64,000 nucleotides of DNA, from positions 135,408 to 199,407 of the forward strand of contig JAGCXM010000015.1 of assembly GCA_017961325.1 (NCBI GenBank), read 5' to 3'. The notes beneath the pieces are model-generated. The model saw only the letters and a program-made list of their open reading frames with translations. It made no database searches and had not been told where the DNA came from. Position numbers and translations under genes: made by a program. This DNA comes from a bacterium (GTDB taxonomy: Bacteria; UBP6; UBA1177). Each line of letters starts with the position of its first letter. Positions within the stretch are counted from its first letter, which is position 1. Shown here piece by piece: positions 6,401 to 22,034 of this stretch.

Positions 6401-8035
6401 ATGAAGAAAGAGTTTTTCCTTATTTTTTTTCTTACGTTTTTTCTGTTGCTTTCAGCATGTTCAAGTGACAAAAAAACAGAAGAAAAAAACGAAAATACAG
6501 AGAGCGGCAGCTCTTCAGGAAACGAAATCGCCGATGACGACAGCTATTCTGAAAACGAGATTACTGATGACGACTCATTCACGAACCCGGATTTTGAAGA
6601 ACTCGAATGCGGCTCCTCTTTCGGTGATATTGCCTGCGATTTCACTCTGCCGTTTGAATCCGGAGATTGGAATTTCGCCGGAAATTATTCAAAAGATGAA
6701 AATTATCTGTTTGTTTTTTACCGCAAAAAAAATTCGGAAAGCAGAAAGATCTGGGAGACCGATCTTTATACTCTTTTTGATCAGACACCTGAAAATACTC
6801 ATTATTTTTTCATGGTTGAGAGTGATGACGCCGATTTTGTAAAAGAAAAAATCCGGATAATCAAGGATTCCGTCGAAGATGCGCACGATATGGTCGGGAA
6901 CACTCCGCTTTTAAAGAAAATCCACATTCTCGAAAAGCCGGTTGCGGAAACGGATTCTTGGATAAACGAATGGCTCAAAAACAATTCAGACTTCTTTTTC
7001 GGAATAGACCAGGAGCGCAAAATCAGACGCGGCGGGTCGTTTTCAAGCTGGGATTCAAGCGATTTGCCGCCGAAATTCAAAAATCTCCACAAAGAGGCAG
7101 AACTTTACAACTATGAAAGACAAGTTTCTGATTTTATTAAAGAAAATTCTACGAATTCAACTTTTTTCAAAGGTCTTGAAAACAAACCTTTCGCCGAAGA
7201 AGGCTGGGTGAAAGACATTGATTTTTCAACAGATTTTGAAGGACTTTCAGAAAACGGCGGACTTTACATTCTGCTTGAACAGATTTGCGACACACCGAAA
7301 AAATGCGAATGGGACAGACTCGAAAGGCTTTTTCTCTGCGACGAAACAGGCGAAAAGTGCGAAACCGAAATCGGCCGCTGGATTACTACTTACGGCAGAA
7401 GCGGCAGATGGCTTACCGATATCACCCCTCTGAAACCGCTGTTTGAAAAAGGCGGGAAATATAAATTCCGCTTCACGGTCGAAGGCGACTATTATGTCAA
7501 CAATCTCGACTTCATTTTCGTGAAAAAAGAGAGCGATACGCCGAAAAAAATTATTCCGCTTTTCAATCAGCGCGAACAGTTTGACGAAAATTACAATTCC
7601 CGTTTCGAGCCGAAAATTCTGACAGAGGAAAATGTGAAAAAAGCCGAAATCGTCGCCTTTATAACAGGTCACGGAAACGGCTCGGAAGAGGCGAACTGCG
7701 CCGAATTCTGCAGATTCGAATCGGTTTTTAACGTTAACGGCAGCGATTTTGAAATCGATTTCAAAAATGCCGGAACCGGTGAAGGATGTTTTGAAGCGGT
7801 TGCCGACGGCGTTGTGCCGAATCAATACGGTTCATGGCCTTACGGACGTGCCGGATGGTGTCCGGGACAGGATGTCAAACTTATAAAAATCGATGTAACG
7901 GATGCACTCGCAAGCGGTGAAAATACGTTTTCATACTCCGCATATCTTGACGGAGACGTCTACGAACCTGTTGTCATAGACGAAAACGGCTATCGCGCCG
8001 AAATTTATCTTTCAAGTTATCTTGTTATTTACTGA
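6401..8035 (+). CDS. PNGase F-like lipoprotein (peptide-N-glycosidase / asparagine amidase family)
   Basis: The lipoprotein signal MKKEFFLIFFLTFFLLLSAC is followed by an acidic linker to about residue 65. The remainder resembles the two jelly-roll domains of PNGase F. Visible are YGRSGRWLTDITPLKPL, the core FITGHGNGSEEANCAEFC, a later PNQYGSWPYGRAGWCPG, and a final domain ending in EIYLSSYLVIY. Known members remove whole N-glycans from glycoproteins by cleaving the Asn side-chain amide, so a cell-surface role against eukaryotic glycoproteins is plausible. The N-terminal half (residues 66-260) is less recognisable. AAGGAG precedes the ATG. The gene follows the S8 protease by 50 bp, probably as one operon, and its last 7 bases overlap the 3' end of a convergent gene. 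Confidence 0.8.
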   Translation: MKKEFFLIFFLTFFLLLSACSSDKKTEEKNENTESGSSSGNEIADDDSYSENEITDDDSFTNPDFEELECGSSFGDIACDFTLPFESGDWNFAGNYSKDENYLFVFYRKKNSESRKIWETDLYTLFDQTPENTHYFFMVESDDADFVKEKIRIIKDSVEDAHDMVGNTPLLKKIHILEKPVAETDSWINEWLKNNSDFFFGIDQERKIRRGGSFSSWDSSDLPPKFKNLHKEAELYNYERQVSDFIKENSTNSTFFKGLENKPFAEEGWVKDIDFSTDFEGLSENGGLYILLEQICDTPKKCEWDRLERLFLCDETGEKCETEIGRWITTYGRSGRWLTDITPLKPLFEKGGKYKFRFTVEGDYYVNNLDFIFVKKESDTPKKIIPLFNQREQFDENYNSRFEPKILTEENVKKAEIVAFITGHGNGSEEANCAEFCRFESVFNVNGSDFEIDFKNAGTGEGCFEAVADGVVPNQYGSWPYGRAGWCPGQDVKLIKIDVTDALASGENTFSYSAYLDGDVYEPVVIDENGYRAEIYLSSYLVIY

Positions 8036-15857: not shown

Positions 15858-17042
15858 CTAGTTATCCGAAGTCAGAATTTCAGTTTCCCACCGGTGCTGG
15901 CGCTGGTATCTCAGCACGTTCGTAAGAACGCGCTTCCTTGCCGCAATCGTCTGATTTTTTTTGTATTCTTCGTGGCTTGCACGCCCGGAACGGCTTTCGG
16001 AGAAACTCTCTTCATCCAGAATCTGAACCTCAAACGGGAAGAAAAAGCGGTAAATAGGCTTTGTCGGGTTTATCGGGTCTTCCATAGTTATGAGAAGTCG
16101 GCTCGTAAGCTGGATCGAAGAGTATGAAGTCGAAGAATAAAGGTTCGTCTCCTCGATGTTTTTTTTCGTAATCTCCTCCTTTTCTTCAGGCGGAATTTCC
16201 AGATATTTTTCCAGAAATTCGGCTACATCCTCCTGAGACCACGAGGAAAGATCGTGCGATTTCAGCTCTTCGACACCTTCGATAAAGTGCGGAATGTTGA
16301 CGACGTTGTTTTTCGTCCTGCTCGGCTTAATGTTGGCGAACGAAATGACGTGATTCGTAGCGAAATACCTGAGCACAAGGATGATATCGAGCTTTGTGTA
16401 GGTCACGATCCGCACTCCGACGCGGTCGAAAATATCGGCAGTGACATTCTCCTTTTTGTGAAGCAGTTTGAGTATCAGGCTGTCGCGCGACTTGTCATTC
16501 TTTATCTCGAAAAGTTTGAGCCTGATCGCGTCGTCGCCCGTTCCAAGAAAGTATCCGCCGGCAGAATTGCCGTTGAGATGGGCACTGAACCTTTTGTAAA
16601 TCTGGTTTCTGATGCCTGGCATAAAACTTTTTGCGAGGTCGTTTTCGACATGCGTGATCGTATGCGCCACCCTCAGAATCGCACAAGCCCATGCCTGTTC
16701 AAGAGTTTTCTCCTTTTCCGAAGCCATGATAAGCAGACTCACGATGTCGTCATTGCAGAGAATGTCCGGCGGAATTATCAGAGTTTCGGTTTTTCCTTCG
16801 GGATCTTCCAGAAGATAGCTCTGGATGAAGGTTTTCGCCTCGCTCAGAATCGAAGCGGCGGTATCCGCAATCTCAGGATCGGTTATGTCATAGCCGTAAT
16901 TTTTTATGAAAGTAAGTCCTGATTCCCTGTCATGGACGTTGAGCCTTTCGATATCGATGAAACTTTTCTGCGAAAAAATCGCGTCAAAAAGCTCAAACGG
17001 GAATTTCAGGAAATTTTTTTCAAGTTTGTTTTTAAGTTCCAT
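15858..17042 (-). CDS. Divergent RelA/SpoT-synthetase-like protein of unknown function
   Basis: This is a soluble 394-residue protein with no signal peptide. The first ~170 residues are mainly helical and include ILRVAHTITHVENDL. From about 187 the order of motifs follows the (p)ppGpp synthetase fold. KLLHKKENVTADIFDRVGVRIV (187-212, written here with its break at 200) parallels the RK...I-DI-G-RI strand, SYSSIQL (306-312) the YQSLH loop, FPFEVQIL (335-342) the EIQIRT strand, and SGRASHEEYKK (352-362) the G-A-AH-YK helix. Key residues of YQSLHT and EIQIRT are changed, so alarmone synthesis is doubtful. I recall an uncharacterised myxobacterial family of similar build (TIGR04552) but cannot confirm membership. 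AGGTGAG precedes the ATG. It follows the GH57 gene by 7 bp, so it is probably cotranscribed with it and glgC. Confidence 0.6.
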   Translation of the reverse strand: MELKNKLEKNFLKFPFELFDAIFSQKSFIDIERLNVHDRESGLTFIKNYGYDITDPEIADTAASILSEAKTFIQSYLLEDPEGKTETLIIPPDILCNDDIVSLLIMASEKEKTLEQAWACAILRVAHTITHVENDLAKSFMPGIRNQIYKRFSAHLNGNSAGGYFLGTGDDAIRLKLFEIKNDKSRDSLILKLLHKKENVTADIFDRVGVRIVTYTKLDIILVLRYFATNHVISFANIKPSRTKNNVVNIPHFIEGVEELKSHDLSSWSQEDVAEFLEKYLEIPPEEKEEITKKNIEETNLYSSTSYSSIQLTSRLLITMEDPINPTKPIYRFFFPFEVQILDEESFSESRSGRASHEEYKKNQTIAARKRVLTNVLRYQRQHRWETEILTSDN

Positions 17043-17049
17043 TTCTCAC

Positions 17050-19224
17050 CTACACATCCCACAGTTTGAAAAGGGCTGCTTCGTCGGGGACAGTCACTTC
17101 GATCGAGCCGTTTCCGGGTATTCTTTCAAGTTCGATTCCCTCGTTTGAGAGGATTTTGAAGTAGATTCTCACTTTTTCGCCAGGTTTCAGGCCGATTTTC
17201 TTTGCATAAAGCGTGAACTCCATAACTTCGTCAAATGCGGCTTCTCCGGCTCCAACGATGTCGGCAACCCTGCCAGATTCGTTGCTGCTGTGGATGAGGA
17301 ACGGCGTTTTTTCGATTTTCACCATCGGAAGGGCGAAATCGATGCTTTTGTGTTCCATGAGGAACCCTTTGATGAAGTATTTTTTGTGCTCGTAGAAGTG
17401 CATCGGGTTTGTCAGTTCGATCCTGAAAAACAGCATGTCACGGTTGAAGCCGTAAAGGATTTTGTCAACGAGTTTGATCGAATTGTACATCGCACCGCCC
17501 GCTTTCTGCGCGTTTTCAAAGCGGCCGGCCCCCGCCCATTCGTAGTAACCGTTGCTGCGGCCCGAAATCACGGGACTTATCTCTCCCGTCGGTTCAACGA
17601 TGAGGCTGCTGCCCAGCTCTGATGAAATCGGAATATCGAGAAATGTCGGATAGTTCATGCCTAGCAGGTTGTAAACGCGGCGCAGATGACGCCTGAAAAG
17701 ACGGTCGAAAAGCCAGTCGTTTTCAGTCGAGAACTGCGGTCCGTACCACCAGAACCAGTCACTTCCCTCGGCGCGGTAAAAGCAGCGCATGATTTCGGAA
17801 TGAATCTGCGGCCCGACGACGTGGTTCTGGCTGTATTTCGCATAAAAATCGCGGACACGCTTGAGATAACCCCACGCAGCGTTGTCTTCGTCGTTTCCTA
17901 TCCAGATCTCGTAGTTTCCGTTTATCCATGAACCTGACCACAAGTCGTTGATGACCGGATATCTGTCGGTTCCGCGACTTATGATGTCGGAATAAACCGT
18001 AGTTTTTATCTCTTCGTCGCTGCTCAGCCGTGAGAAAAGTTCTTTCAAAAAGTGCTCACCGTTGTCAGGATAGGATTCCCATGCGTTTTCGCCGTCCATG
18101 ATGACCGAAACGACAGGTTCAGAGCCGTTTGACGGGAAGTTTGCAGCCGCGTTTTTCACATAGTTCACGAAAATATCGGCAGCCTGCTCCGCTTTCATCT
18201 GAGAAAAAGAAAATCCCAGAAGATCCGACAGGTATTTGTCTCTGAAAAATACCGTAATATCCTGATTTTTTTCACTTTTTAAAAGATACGGCCTGTATAG
18301 CACCCGTGATTTGTCGCTGCGATGAAGCGACTTCAGAAGGATCGTTTCATCGGTTGTTATCCATTTTACCGAAGAATCGGCAGCCGCATCGGTTATTTCG
18401 GGAGCGACCGAGCCTTCAGCAGGCCACATTCCGTTCAGAGTGCGTCCCCAGACCTCTTCGCTGTAACGCTTTCCCTCTTCCAGGTGCCATTTTGCGTCTT
18501 CGGGATAGGAATACCGCGGCGGAAGCGGTAGTGTTGTGCTTCTTTTCGCGATGTCGCTGTCGTAAACGAGCGGAAAAATCGGGTGATAAAAGGGCGTGAA
18601 CGAAATTTCGATGACGCCTTCGTCTGCAAGCTGCCTGTAAAGCGGAATTATGCTGCGCAGGACTTTGCGCTGGATTTCGAGAAGATCCTCCTTGTCCCTT
18701 TTCGTAAAGCCGCAGTCCTTGCGTTCAAGCTCTGCAAGACGTTCGAACTCCGATTTTGCAGTAAAACCGAACCACTTGAGGTTGAAAAGAACCTGCAGGT
18801 CAAGGATTTCGTCATCGGAAAAGAGTTTGGCCATCTCGTTCCAGCCGAGCTTCTTTTCGTAGCGCAGACGCTTGTTCAAAAGCTCGTTGTAACGCGGCGA
18901 AGTCCTGACCAGACGATCCCAGTTGAGCATGAAGAAATTCTTTATTACGAAAGCCTTCTGCTCTTCCTTCATCTCTGACGGATCGGTAATCGTGTGCTCG
19001 AGCCAGGCATCGGTCACGTTGTTTTCGGTATAGTCCTTAAGCTGCTCGATAAGCGACGGAACTACGTTCACGACACCTTTGACACCGTATTTTTTCATTG
19101 CAGAGGGAATGTCGTAGTAGCCTTTCATAGCGTGAAGACGGACCCACGGCATGAGATAGGTATTTCTGATGCAGTCTTTGTAGTAAGGCTGGTGCATGTG
19201 CCACAAAAAAACGAGCTCGGTCAT
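17050..19224 (-). CDS. Glycoside hydrolase family 57 (alpha-amylase/alpha-glucan-active)
   Basis: The N-terminus LVFLWHMHQPYY is the first conserved GH57 region. The expected catalytic nucleophile is Glu near residue 270 in GMWPAEGSVAPE and the acid is Asp near 377 in VIMDGENAWESYP. The middle section (FTPFYHPIFPL) fits the same (beta/alpha)7 barrel. The C-terminal ~180 residues form a beta-rich domain. No signal peptide is present, so the enzyme should be cytoplasmic and act on glycogen-like alpha-glucan; 724 residues is typical of the longer GH57 subgroup. The start lies 3 bp after the stop of glgC, with GGAGG inside the end of glgC, so the two are coupled. Amylase versus 4-alpha-glucanotransferase specificity cannot be told from motifs. 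Confidence 0.9.
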   Translation of the reverse strand: MTELVFLWHMHQPYYKDCIRNTYLMPWVRLHAMKGYYDIPSAMKKYGVKGVVNVVPSLIEQLKDYTENNVTDAWLEHTITDPSEMKEEQKAFVIKNFFMLNWDRLVRTSPRYNELLNKRLRYEKKLGWNEMAKLFSDDEILDLQVLFNLKWFGFTAKSEFERLAELERKDCGFTKRDKEDLLEIQRKVLRSIIPLYRQLADEGVIEISFTPFYHPIFPLVYDSDIAKRSTTLPLPPRYSYPEDAKWHLEEGKRYSEEVWGRTLNGMWPAEGSVAPEITDAAADSSVKWITTDETILLKSLHRSDKSRVLYRPYLLKSEKNQDITVFFRDKYLSDLLGFSFSQMKAEQAADIFVNYVKNAAANFPSNGSEPVVSVIMDGENAWESYPDNGEHFLKELFSRLSSDEEIKTTVYSDIISRGTDRYPVINDLWSGSWINGNYEIWIGNDEDNAAWGYLKRVRDFYAKYSQNHVVGPQIHSEIMRCFYRAEGSDWFWWYGPQFSTENDWLFDRLFRRHLRRVYNLLGMNYPTFLDIPISSELGSSLIVEPTGEISPVISGRSNGYYEWAGAGRFENAQKAGGAMYNSIKLVDKILYGFNRDMLFFRIELTNPMHFYEHKKYFIKGFLMEHKSIDFALPMVKIEKTPFLIHSSNESGRVADIVGAGEAAFDEVMEFTLYAKKIGLKPGEKVRIYFKILSNEGIELERIPGNGSIEVTVPDEAALFKLWDV

Positions 19225-19227
19225 GGA

Positions 19228-20478
19228 CTATCTGTCCTCCTGGAAGTTATAACCCTTCGGAATTACTACAATTCCGTCTTCGGTAACGGTAAAGCCGCGT
19301 TCAGCATCCTTCTTGAGGTCGAAACCGACTTTCGTGTCGGGCGGAATAACGACATTCTTATCAACGATGACGTTTTTAAGCTCGCAGTAACGCCCGATCT
19401 TGACGTTGTTGAGAATTACGCACTGGTCAAGTTTGCTGTAGCTGTTGACTCTGACACCGGGAGAAAGAACGGAGCGGTTCACGCTGCCGCCGCTGATGAT
19501 GCACCCTTCCGAAACAAGCGAATCGGTCGCGATTCCCATTCTCTTGTGCTCCTTGTCGGCGAAAACGAACTTCGCGGGCGGCATGTTGACTTCGGGAAAA
19601 CCGAAGATCGGCCAGTGGCGGTTGTAGAGATTGATCGCCGGAGAAACCGAGACCAGATCCATATGCGCCTCGAAGTAGCTTTTTATAGTTCCGACATCAC
19701 GCCAGTAAGGCTTTTCATACTCGTTTTCATCGGGCATATAGATCGTATTTTTGAGGAAATCATAAACATAAACCCGTTTGTACGGATAAAGTGCGGGAAT
19801 GACGTTTTTGCCGAAATCGTGTTCGCTCGTCGGATCTTTTGCGTCGTTCGTCACAGCGTTGACGAGGACATCGCGCGAAAAGAGATAGTTCCCCATGCTG
19901 ACAAGGGCATAACCAGGATTCCCGGGAATCGGTTTAGGATTTTTCGGCTTCTCCTCGAAACCCACCATTCTGTAGTCTTCGTCAATCTCAATCACGCCGA
20001 AAGCCCCCGCCTCTTCGATCGGCACGGGAAGAGCCGCAATCGTCATGTCTGCATTTTTGATGTTGTGGTATGTGTACATCTGCGAAATATCCATTTTGTA
20101 GATGTGGTCGCCGCTGAAAACGAAGACATTTTTCGGAGATTCGTCGCGGACAAGATTGAGATTCTGATAGATCGCGTCGGCACTGCCGAGATACCAGTTG
20201 TCGCCGGTACGCATCTGTGCCGGAACCGAGTCTACATACTGGTTGAAGCGCGGTGACAGCCCCCAGTTTCTAGAAATGTGCTGGATCAAAGAGTCGCTCA
20301 TGAACTGCGTCAGAACCTTGATCTGCATAAAGCCGGAATTGACGAAATTGCTCAGGACAAAGTCAATTATACGGTAGGAACCGCCGAACGGAACCGCCGG
20401 TTTCGCCCTGTCTAAAGTAAGCGGAGCGAGCCTTTTGCCCTGACCGCCGGCCAGGATCATTACAAGTGCCTTTGACAT
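19228..20478 (-). CDS. glgC: Glucose-1-phosphate adenylyltransferase
   Basis: The enzyme makes ADP-glucose for glycogen synthesis. The N-terminus MILAGGQGKRLAPLT, followed by AKPAVPFGGSYRIIDF, is the family signature. SGDHIYKMD, AFGVIEID, FEEKP and the substrate loop RDVGTIKSYFEAH follow. The C-terminal ~120 residues form a left-handed beta-helix (SEGCIISGGSVNRSVLSPG, ILNNVKIGRYCELKN). At 416 residues it has the normal length. GGAGAAG precedes the ATG. It heads a run with GH57 and the RelA-like gene. Confidence 0.96.
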   Translation of the reverse strand: MSKALVMILAGGQGKRLAPLTLDRAKPAVPFGGSYRIIDFVLSNFVNSGFMQIKVLTQFMSDSLIQHISRNWGLSPRFNQYVDSVPAQMRTGDNWYLGSADAIYQNLNLVRDESPKNVFVFSGDHIYKMDISQMYTYHNIKNADMTIAALPVPIEEAGAFGVIEIDEDYRMVGFEEKPKNPKPIPGNPGYALVSMGNYLFSRDVLVNAVTNDAKDPTSEHDFGKNVIPALYPYKRVYVYDFLKNTIYMPDENEYEKPYWRDVGTIKSYFEAHMDLVSVSPAINLYNRHWPIFGFPEVNMPPAKFVFADKEHKRMGIATDSLVSEGCIISGGSVNRSVLSPGVRVNSYSKLDQCVILNNVKIGRYCELKNVIVDKNVVIPPDTKVGFDLKKDAERGFTVTEDGIVVIPKGYNFQEDR

Positions 20479-20508: not shown

Positions 20509-21696
20509 CTACTTATGTTCAACAACCGTAGTCGCAAAAGGATATAACGACGGATCATTCAGTATGTTTTCGTACTCAGTCAGACCTTTGAGCGTAGAAT
20601 TGAAAAACGCCGTCATAAGCCCTCCGGTATAGGCGATGAACATAAGATTCATCCCCTTGTCGCCGCTTCCGGCACAGGTCGAGCAGTATACATTGCAGGC
20701 TTTCACATCTTCAGGATCAACCATGTCGGCGTGACCTACGCCGGCAGCGATTATGTGGTGGCTGGGAGAGGGATATGCCGCATAAAAGTTAACGCTGTTA
20801 TCATTTTTCGGAGCGCATGCCCCGGTATTGCCGTTCAACTTGTTTTTGGGACCCTTTTCAGTTCCCAGAAACATCGATTCGCCTGTAAACCGGACGGGAA
20901 CGTTGAGGCTCTGCGGATCGTCATCGCCGATAAAACCGTCTAACGGCGGAGCTGAATCGACAGGATCGACACCGAAGAAACTCGTCGCAATAGACGGATC
21001 TGTGTTGAGAACGCGGTTCATAACTTTGCCGCCGCGGCTGTGCCCGGAAACGCCGAAATGTTCGACATCGGCCGTAACGGAAACTTTCGACTGGATATTC
21101 TGTTTGAGCCAGTTTATGAACGTAATGACTTTTTCGGCTTCCTTAATGGTTGTGTCCCCGTTCACCATTTTATGTTCAGACTGACTCGAAACGACGATGA
21201 AACCGTGAGATGCCAGCCGCATCAGAAAATCGTCATAGTAGCTGATTTTATACATGAATCCGTGCAGAAAGTGGACAACGGGAATTTTGCCTTCCGCGCC
21301 TATCGGTTCGTATATTCTGAACTGTCTGGGAGAGCCGTCATCCCCGGAAGCGACATTGATCACGTTTACATAGTATTGACCGAAACAGAACAGAGGATCT
21401 GTTTCGCATACAACAGGCTCATCGTCCGAGTTATCCGCGTCGTCCGAATTTTCCAAGACATCGGCATCAACTTCACCCGTATCAGAAATTTCATTCTCAT
21501 CCGTAACTTCGGGAGCATCGGCATCATCATCGACCGTTTCCGGGGCATCGGCATCATCCGCCGAAGTATCCTGATCGTTGGTACGAGAATCGTCTTCAGT
21601 GACGGAAGTGTCTGTTTTCCTTGAATTTATAGAGTTCTCACAACCTGAAAAGAAAACGAACGGCAAAAACAAAAACAGAACAAAATACTTTCTCAT
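20509..21696 (-). CDS. Alpha/beta-hydrolase lipoprotein (chlorophyllase/cutinase-like fold)
   Basis: The ATG at 21696 follows GGAGAT and starts a lipoprotein signal (MRKYFVLFLFLPFVFFSGC). An acidic Asp/Glu/Thr-rich linker runs to about residue 100. The hydrolase domain then shows the oxyanion-side HFLHGFMYK, the nucleophile elbow GVSGHSRGGK (Ser in GHSRGG), an Asp region around FFGVDPVDSAPP and a late GVGHADMVDP that could supply the catalytic His. The order fits the chlorophyllase-like/PETase-like alpha/beta hydrolases, which are esterases. Two Cys pairs near the end (CNVYCSTC) may form disulfides. The substrate is unknown. It lies upstream of glgC on the same strand with a 30-bp gap, so co-transcription is possible. 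Confidence 0.8.
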   Translation of the reverse strand: MRKYFVLFLFLPFVFFSGCENSINSRKTDTSVTEDDSRTNDQDTSADDADAPETVDDDADAPEVTDENEISDTGEVDADVLENSDDADNSDDEPVVCETDPLFCFGQYYVNVINVASGDDGSPRQFRIYEPIGAEGKIPVVHFLHGFMYKISYYDDFLMRLASHGFIVVSSQSEHKMVNGDTTIKEAEKVITFINWLKQNIQSKVSVTADVEHFGVSGHSRGGKVMNRVLNTDPSIATSFFGVDPVDSAPPLDGFIGDDDPQSLNVPVRFTGESMFLGTEKGPKNKLNGNTGACAPKNDNSVNFYAAYPSPSHHIIAAGVGHADMVDPEDVKACNVYCSTCAGSGDKGMNLMFIAYTGGLMTAFFNSTLKGLTEYENILNDPSLYPFATTVVEHK

Positions 21697-22034
21697 TTCA
21701 AATCTCCATAACAAAAACCCGTATAATTTAGAGAAAAATGCCGTGAAATCAAGGAAAAATACCGCTTCGGCGGCGACAAAGGCACAAATGCAGCGCCATA
21801 ACGTCCAACTATTTCCATTTTTTAAAACTGAAAACGGATTTTCCAAAGAAAGCAAGAACTGCCGGAATTTAATTTTCCTGTTGCTTTTACGCAAGCCCTT
21901 GATTTCATAACATATTGATTTTATTGCGTTTTGTTCAAAGCAGATTCGGCAGGCGAACAAAATTGTTGACTTTTATCCTCTCATCCGTATAATTTCCGCG
22001 TTTTTTTTGACCCTTGTTATTGGAGGATTAAGGG
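21697..22034. other. 338-bp intergenic region between hydrolase lipoprotein and rpsO
   Basis: This divergent intergenic region is AT-rich and I see no credible gene in it. Its right end holds the rpsO promoter (21966-21993) and ribosome site. No clear hairpin terminator or riboswitch could be recognised by eye. Confidence 0.6.
21966..21993 (+). promoter_or_regulatory. Sigma-70-type promoter of rpsO-pnp-dut
   Basis: TTGACT at 21966-21971 and a perfect TATAAT at 21988-21993 are 16 bp apart. The rpsO start is 42 bp downstream, after GGAGGATTAAGGG. Confidence 0.75.

Follow-up and report, generated by a model that had tools for sequence, protein, structure and literature searches.

In Staphylococcus aureus RelP, a small synthetase of the RelA/SpoT (RSH) type, residues K80, S84, K88, R112, D107 and E174 are ligands of ATP and magnesium (PMC5794853), and an equivalent ligand set is found in FaRel2 (PMC11782079). 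Synthesis and hydrolysis can also be divided between two long enzymes: in the Moraxellaceae, SpoT[Hs] has lost synthesis and RelA retains it (PMC3153485). The TIGR04562/TIGR04552 family is named in only one paper found in the open literature, which lists an evolved mutation: a high-frequency single-base deletion (frameshift) in the TIGR04552 gene that swept one experimentally evolved Bdellovibrio line (PMC9888234). The gene is therefore dispensable there.

The protein considered here is encoded by an intact ORF of 394 aa at 15858–17042, minus strand, of the window (the whole 64,000 nt stretch of DNA that was analysed), part of a draft genome (2.35 Mb) from the phylum UBP6; this phylum is represented by metagenome-assembled genomes (MAGs), mostly rumen and other environmental. 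With RelP and RelQ (SAS) the protein shares the synthetase fold, the conserved ATP/Mg ligands and the absence of HD and TGS domains, and these enzymes are its best structural match. However, it is about twice as long, carries a new helical domain at the N-terminus, has an insertion in the G-loop region and changes in the acceptor loop and at the R of EIQIRT, and gives a sub-threshold Pfam score. Profile alignment with long Rel spans the SYNTH domain, including the GxAAHxxYK tail, but no Pfam match to the HD, TGS or ACT domains of long Rel was found in the 394 aa protein. The toxSAS enzymes (FaRel2, CapRel, Tas1) have the same RSH pyrophosphotransferase core, and CapRel is among the Foldseek matches listed, with weak scores; unlike them, the TIGR04562 family is not mobile, has no antitoxin and is universal in its lineages. 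The SAS subgroup bdRel, of the beta- and delta-proteobacteria, was compared by name and distribution only.

Family membership, domain layout and fold

The 394 aa protein is a full-length member of TIGR04562/TIGR04552, a linked NCBIfam pair without assigned function. It scores 332 bits against TIGR04562 (cut-off 140) and 315 bits against TIGR04552 (cut-off 125), over residues 14–373 in both cases; scores so far above the cut-offs place the match far beyond chance. All 51 relatives match both models. The Pfam RelA_SpoT model gives 23.6 bits on this protein, under the gathering score of 27, and matches 47 of the 51 relatives at E<=1 (best 1.6e-8); TIGR00691 spoT_relA is matched by 11. The features of the locus, with the source of each in brackets, are as follows.

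15858..17042, minus strand: TIGR04562/TIGR04552-family protein, RSH-synthetase-like, 394 aa (profile matches, model, Foldseek, hhalign)
16533..17042, minus strand: N-terminal all-helical domain, residues 1–170, with a near-invariant H131 (alignment, model)
15921..16532, minus strand: predicted RSH synthetase (SYNTH) domain, residues 171–374 (profile alignment, Foldseek)
16455..16493, minus strand: putative ATP-phosphate-binding stretch K184-S188-K192-K196 (RelSeq K243, S247, K251, K255), invariant (alignment)
16410..16427, minus strand: putative Mg-binding D206 and adenine-stacking R211 (RelSeq D264, R269), invariant (alignment; roles from PMC5794853)
16146..16292, minus strand: helical insertion, residues 251–299, in the acceptor (G-loop) region (alignment, model)
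16110..16145, minus strand: family-specific acceptor loop N300..S303..Y307..Q311, in place of Rel PKxNGYQSLH (alignment)
16014..16031, minus strand: E338-V-Q340-I-L-D343, counterpart of E323-I-Q325-I-R-T (alignment)
15960..15986, minus strand: G353..H357..Y360-K361, counterpart of RelSeq G338-AAH342-W-A-Y345-K346 (alignment)
17050..19224, minus strand: GH57 glycoside hydrolase, directly upstream of the 394 aa gene with a 7-base gap (Pfam, ORF)
19228..20478, minus strand: glgC, glucose-1-phosphate adenylyltransferase, 3-base gap from GH57 (profile match, ORF)

An AlphaFold2 model built with the 51 relatives reached a pLDDT of 89 and a pTM of 0.84. All 50 matches listed by Foldseek against the PDB are RSH synthetases, the best being S. 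aureus RelP 6ex0 (E 1.4e-4, probability 1.00). Target-normalised TM-scores to the small synthetases are modest, mostly 0.42–0.48, because of the insertions in the 394 aa protein. When the family was aligned with 21 intact Rel proteins by hhalign, only the SYNTH domain aligned (E 2.9e-6), with the catalytic residues in register, and an hmmsearch of PDB sequences returned YwaC (E 4.4e-4) and RelSeq (E 0.013). Profile alignment and model thus support an RSH synthetase fold for residues ~171–374. The initial annotation had reached the same fold from motifs that are indeed present in the order of the (p)ppGpp synthetase domain, and nothing among the Foldseek matches listed points to an unrelated one.

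The N-terminal domain has no such counterpart. Residues 1–168 modelled alone (AlphaFold, pLDDT 77, weaker than the same region in the full-length model) gave a best Foldseek PDB match of only E 2.7. The N-terminal ~170 residues thus match no solved structure and contain no recognisable HD domain, in agreement with the earlier statement that HD and TGS are absent, and a remnant HD domain was rejected as an explanation for this region. The helical domain would probably act as a regulator of the synthetase. The helical insertion at residues 251–299 is variable across relatives and is almost missing in Eremiobacterota members.

A PDB profile search also returned glutamate–cysteine ligase 3ig5 (E 0.0019) over N300..D343 (window 16014–16145), sharing N, S, F/Y, IQ, FEVQ and D with residues 300–343. 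No glutamate–cysteine ligase is present among the Pfam families or the Foldseek matches listed, and the likeness is probably convergent.

Conservation of the active site and the choice of acceptor

Fifteen columns are invariant in the alignment of the 51 relatives, which come from several phyla, and ten of these correspond to RelSeq K243, S247, K251, K255, D264, R269, E323, Q325, G338 and Y345. The six RelP ligands of ATP and magnesium likewise all correspond to residues invariant in the 51 relatives. The RelSeq positions that are changed in the 394 aa protein are only R241, K304/N306, H312 and R327/T328. R241 is one of two adenine-stacking arginines; it is not Arg in this family, and members of the TIGR04562 branch, but no others, have K/R at the preceding residue (K181). 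On the acceptor side K304, N306, H312 and R327 are all changed, and only the base-stacking Y308 is usually kept, as Y/F in most members. In E338-V-Q340-I-L-D343 the catalytic Glu is retained, the Arg is gone and the Asp is family-specific. As read from the alignment, therefore, both the donor half and the catalytic Glu have been retained, and the changes fall in the acceptor loop and at one adenine-stacking Arg. The description of the catalytic motifs as altered accordingly holds for the acceptor side and for that Arg, but does not extend to most of the donor/Mg ligands or to the catalytic Glu, which is invariant (n=51).

In the rumen UBP6 genus to which the window belongs (g1), the catalytic residues of the TIGR04562 protein are intact in 15 of 15 sequences, and the protein is extremely constrained, residues 171–250 evolving with a dN/dS of 0.005. 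The analysis thus shows family membership, fold, conservation of catalytic residues and purifying selection, as well as the loss of synthetase residues from a Rel that keeps its hydrolase (see below); enzymatic activity, the acceptor, the partnership with Rel and the part played by the N-terminal domain are inferred. The TIGR04562 protein would be an active RSH-type pyrophosphokinase that binds ATP-Mg and transfers pyrophosphate from ATP to the 3′-OH of an acceptor; this would most probably be a guanine nucleotide, with (p)ppGpp as the product.

The sub-threshold Pfam score, the loss of several Rel-invariant residues and the large helical additions would be consistent with an RSH-fold protein without catalytic activity, one that senses or regulates by binding alarmone or nucleotide. 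However, K184, S188, K192, D206, R211, E338 and Q340 are invariant in all 51 relatives across several phyla, and pseudo-enzymes lose exactly those residues, as the Rel synthetase of g1 has done (see below). The invariance of most donor/Mg ligands and of the catalytic Glu argues against a pure binder or sensor, two of the roles originally suggested, and we consider this reading unlikely.

Since the family lacks R241, K304, N306, H312 and R327, GDP/GTP may not be the acceptor, and a different nucleotide product, which the initial annotation also put forward, is possible. The main rival to (p)ppGpp synthesis is an active pyrophosphokinase with another acceptor (adenine nucleotides, the 3′ end of an RNA or some other metabolite), producing a signal separate from (p)ppGpp; less likely are an inactive binder, a toxin or a regulator specific to glycogen. 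Known RSH enzymes include some that act on adenine nucleotides or tRNA (PMC11782079; PMC12691689), and an invariant ATP/Mg side combined with an acceptor loop bearing family-specific N300, S303, Q311 and D343 would suit such an enzyme, as would the intact Rel found alongside it in most genomes, a hint that its task is a separate one. Against it, the partner that is kept in g1 is the Rel hydrolase domain, which acts on 3′-pyrophosphorylated nucleotides, and the gene is housekeeping, single-copy and mostly vertical, unlike those of toxic ppApp- or tRNA-directed enzymes. We regard another acceptor as possible, if doubtful. The more specific proposal that the family makes a 3′-pyrophosphorylated signal other than (p)ppGpp, with a new sensor domain at its N-terminus and an acceptor site that differs from those of all characterised RSH enzymes, is slightly more doubtful.

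The long Rel of the rumen genus

The genome containing the window encodes one other RSH protein, a long Rel (L001:340–2655, minus strand; G000:C42), and no third RelA_SpoT match at E<=10. In all 14 g1 genomes in which Rel was read, its synthetase domain carries D264N, R241K/E, S247Y/A and R327C together with a disrupted GxAAHWxYK motif, and two of these genomes additionally have K251S and E323K. The g1 genomes are MAGs, and one of the 15, which is 59 % complete, gave no Rel. Nine hydrolase residues, including HD, ED and DRLHNM, are all retained in 14 of 14. In other UBP6 genera D264 and the remaining ligands are kept in 6 of 6 Rel proteins, except for S247G in one. Judged by its residues, the g1 Rel is a pseudo-synthetase with an intact hydrolase domain.

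The divergence of the g1 Rel is specific to the synthetase domain. Identity to Rel of other-family UBP6 genomes is 63.2 % in the synthetase region of intact same-family Rel, versus 43.5 and 38.8 % in the two g1 branches. The corresponding values are 56.6 % against 54.7 and 53.2 % for HD, 58.7 % against 56.0 and 52.4 % for TGS, and 44.7 % against 37.8 and 35.4 % for the C-terminal region. The two synthetase halves of the TIGR04562 protein, compared in the same way, change from 74.5 % to 72.0 and 71.0 % and from 70.5 % to 64.9 and 64.0 %. Thus, the drop in HD, TGS and both TIGR04562 halves is only 2–7 points.

Within the main g1 branch, dN/dS is 0.043 for the degraded Rel synthetase, 0.045 for HD and 0.043 for TGS. 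A value as low as that of HD indicates that the domain is now under purifying selection, is not simply decaying and is retained for something; neutral decay is not supported on this basis, and a burst of change followed by renewed constraint fits better. The degraded synthetase may keep some function, perhaps in structure or regulation.

Because the g1 Rel has lost the Mg-binding Asp and further ligands and the TIGR04562 protein keeps its own, the latter is the best candidate for an alarmone synthetase in this genus, and from the sequences available it is apparently the only one. The most economical interpretation of a Rel with its hydrolase kept and its synthetase lost is that Rel acts as a hydrolase there and that the TIGR04562 protein produces the substrate. 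The TIGR04562 protein would then have taken over alarmone synthesis from the long Rel, which would stay only as a hydrolase, an [Hs] enzyme. The arrangement resembles the Moraxellaceae pair SpoT[Hs] and RelA[hS] (PMC3153485) in that a long RSH protein with a dead synthetase and an intact hydrolase stands beside a separate synthetase candidate, but differs in that the presumed synthetase of g1 is the TIGR04562 protein and not RelA. On balance, we favour the view that the TIGR04562 protein is an active pyrophosphokinase, most probably making (p)ppGpp in place of the synthetase-dead Rel of g1. If this is true, an unrecognised enzyme has replaced Rel as the alarmone synthetase of a whole rumen genus, leaving its long Rel a hydrolase only, and a conserved alarmone synthetase of Bdellovibrionota, Myxococcota and UBP6, that is, of predatory and environmental lineages, escapes surveys based on RelA/SpoT models. 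Both the product of the family and the stimulus sensed by its new N-terminal domain are then testable questions.

Distribution and genomic neighbourhood

Members of the TIGR04562/TIGR04552 family are present in 28 of 28 UBP6 genomes, in 126 of 144 genomes of Bdellovibrionota (the phylum of a Bdellovibrionales relative) and in 37 of 58 Myxococcota-type genomes, as well as in Kiloniella, some gammaproteobacterial, Eremiobacterota and Tanganyikabacteria genomes. So regular an occurrence in UBP6 and Bdellovibrionota is unlike that of a sporadic toxin. The UBP6 members form one clade (support 100/100) and lineages mostly cluster, which suggests largely vertical inheritance. A strong Rel synthetase match is found in 12 of 12 family-carrying genomes from other phyla and in nearly all Bdellovibrionota. 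Since the family thus coexists with intact Rel in Bdellovibrionota and Myxococcota, replacing Rel is not its general role; that role would be additional to Rel. A relA null mutant of Myxococcus xanthus reportedly shows no (p)ppGpp accumulation upon starvation, and large Myxococcota genomes carry TIGR04552 members; this would suggest that the branch makes little (p)ppGpp under such conditions, or makes something else.

One Bdellovibrionota genome (G122; L147, C1:1120500–1124800, on a 3-Mb contig) has a rel gene frameshifted within the synthetase domain, through mutation or sequencing error. A second natural loss of Rel in this phylum was considered and rejected, as this frameshift and a few MAGs without a match are isolated cases and possibly sequencing or assembly gaps.

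As a synthetase-only RSH protein, the TIGR04562 protein might be taken for a toxSAS-type toxin or antiphage effector. However, it has no PADLOC match, no relatives were found in viral contigs, the best match in a PHROGs search was only E 0.063, the gene is universal and mostly vertical in UBP6, and no conserved small partner gene is apparent at the loci examined. Such a role is extremely improbable.

Both GH57 and glgC lie upstream of the family gene, as noted in the initial annotation, which drew from this a link to carbon storage; all three are on the same strand, and GH57 and the 394 aa gene are probably on the same transcript. In g1 the family gene follows GH57 after 7–14 bases at 10 of 14 loci, the other four being beyond simple ORF calling. 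Adjacency of the family gene to glgC-GH57 is absent from all 10 loci of other UBP6 genera and from every locus examined outside UBP6. A general glycogen link was thus rejected, the neighbourhood not being conserved beyond g1; within g1 the operon may co-regulate the family gene with carbon storage. A role in glycogen regulation confined to the glgC-GH57 operon would account for the close spacing of these co-directional genes in g1 (3 and 7 bases in the window), but is very unlikely given the unrelated neighbourhoods in other UBP6 genera, in Bdellovibrionota and elsewhere. In Bacteriovoracaceae the family gene lies beside genes that we take, from reading the sequence and not from a family search, to be pgpA and recA, and in Bdellovibrio-like genomes beside what is presumably a plsC-like gene, named in the same way.

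Several further features of these neighbourhoods were observed. In Bacteriovoracaceae (L066, L068–L075, L083 and L088) the family gene consistently diverges from the pgpA-like gene, itself beside recA, and converges with a single conserved neighbour (cluster c4). Secreted proteins with a lipoprotein-type signal followed by long Asp/Glu/Thr-rich linkers are encoded at window 20509–21960 (minus strand) and in clusters at L032–L054; they recur beside family loci in UBP6. Additionally, the protein encoded at window 6401–8035 (plus strand) carries the C-terminal domain of peptide-N-glycosidase F (Pfam PF09113, E 8.6e-23).
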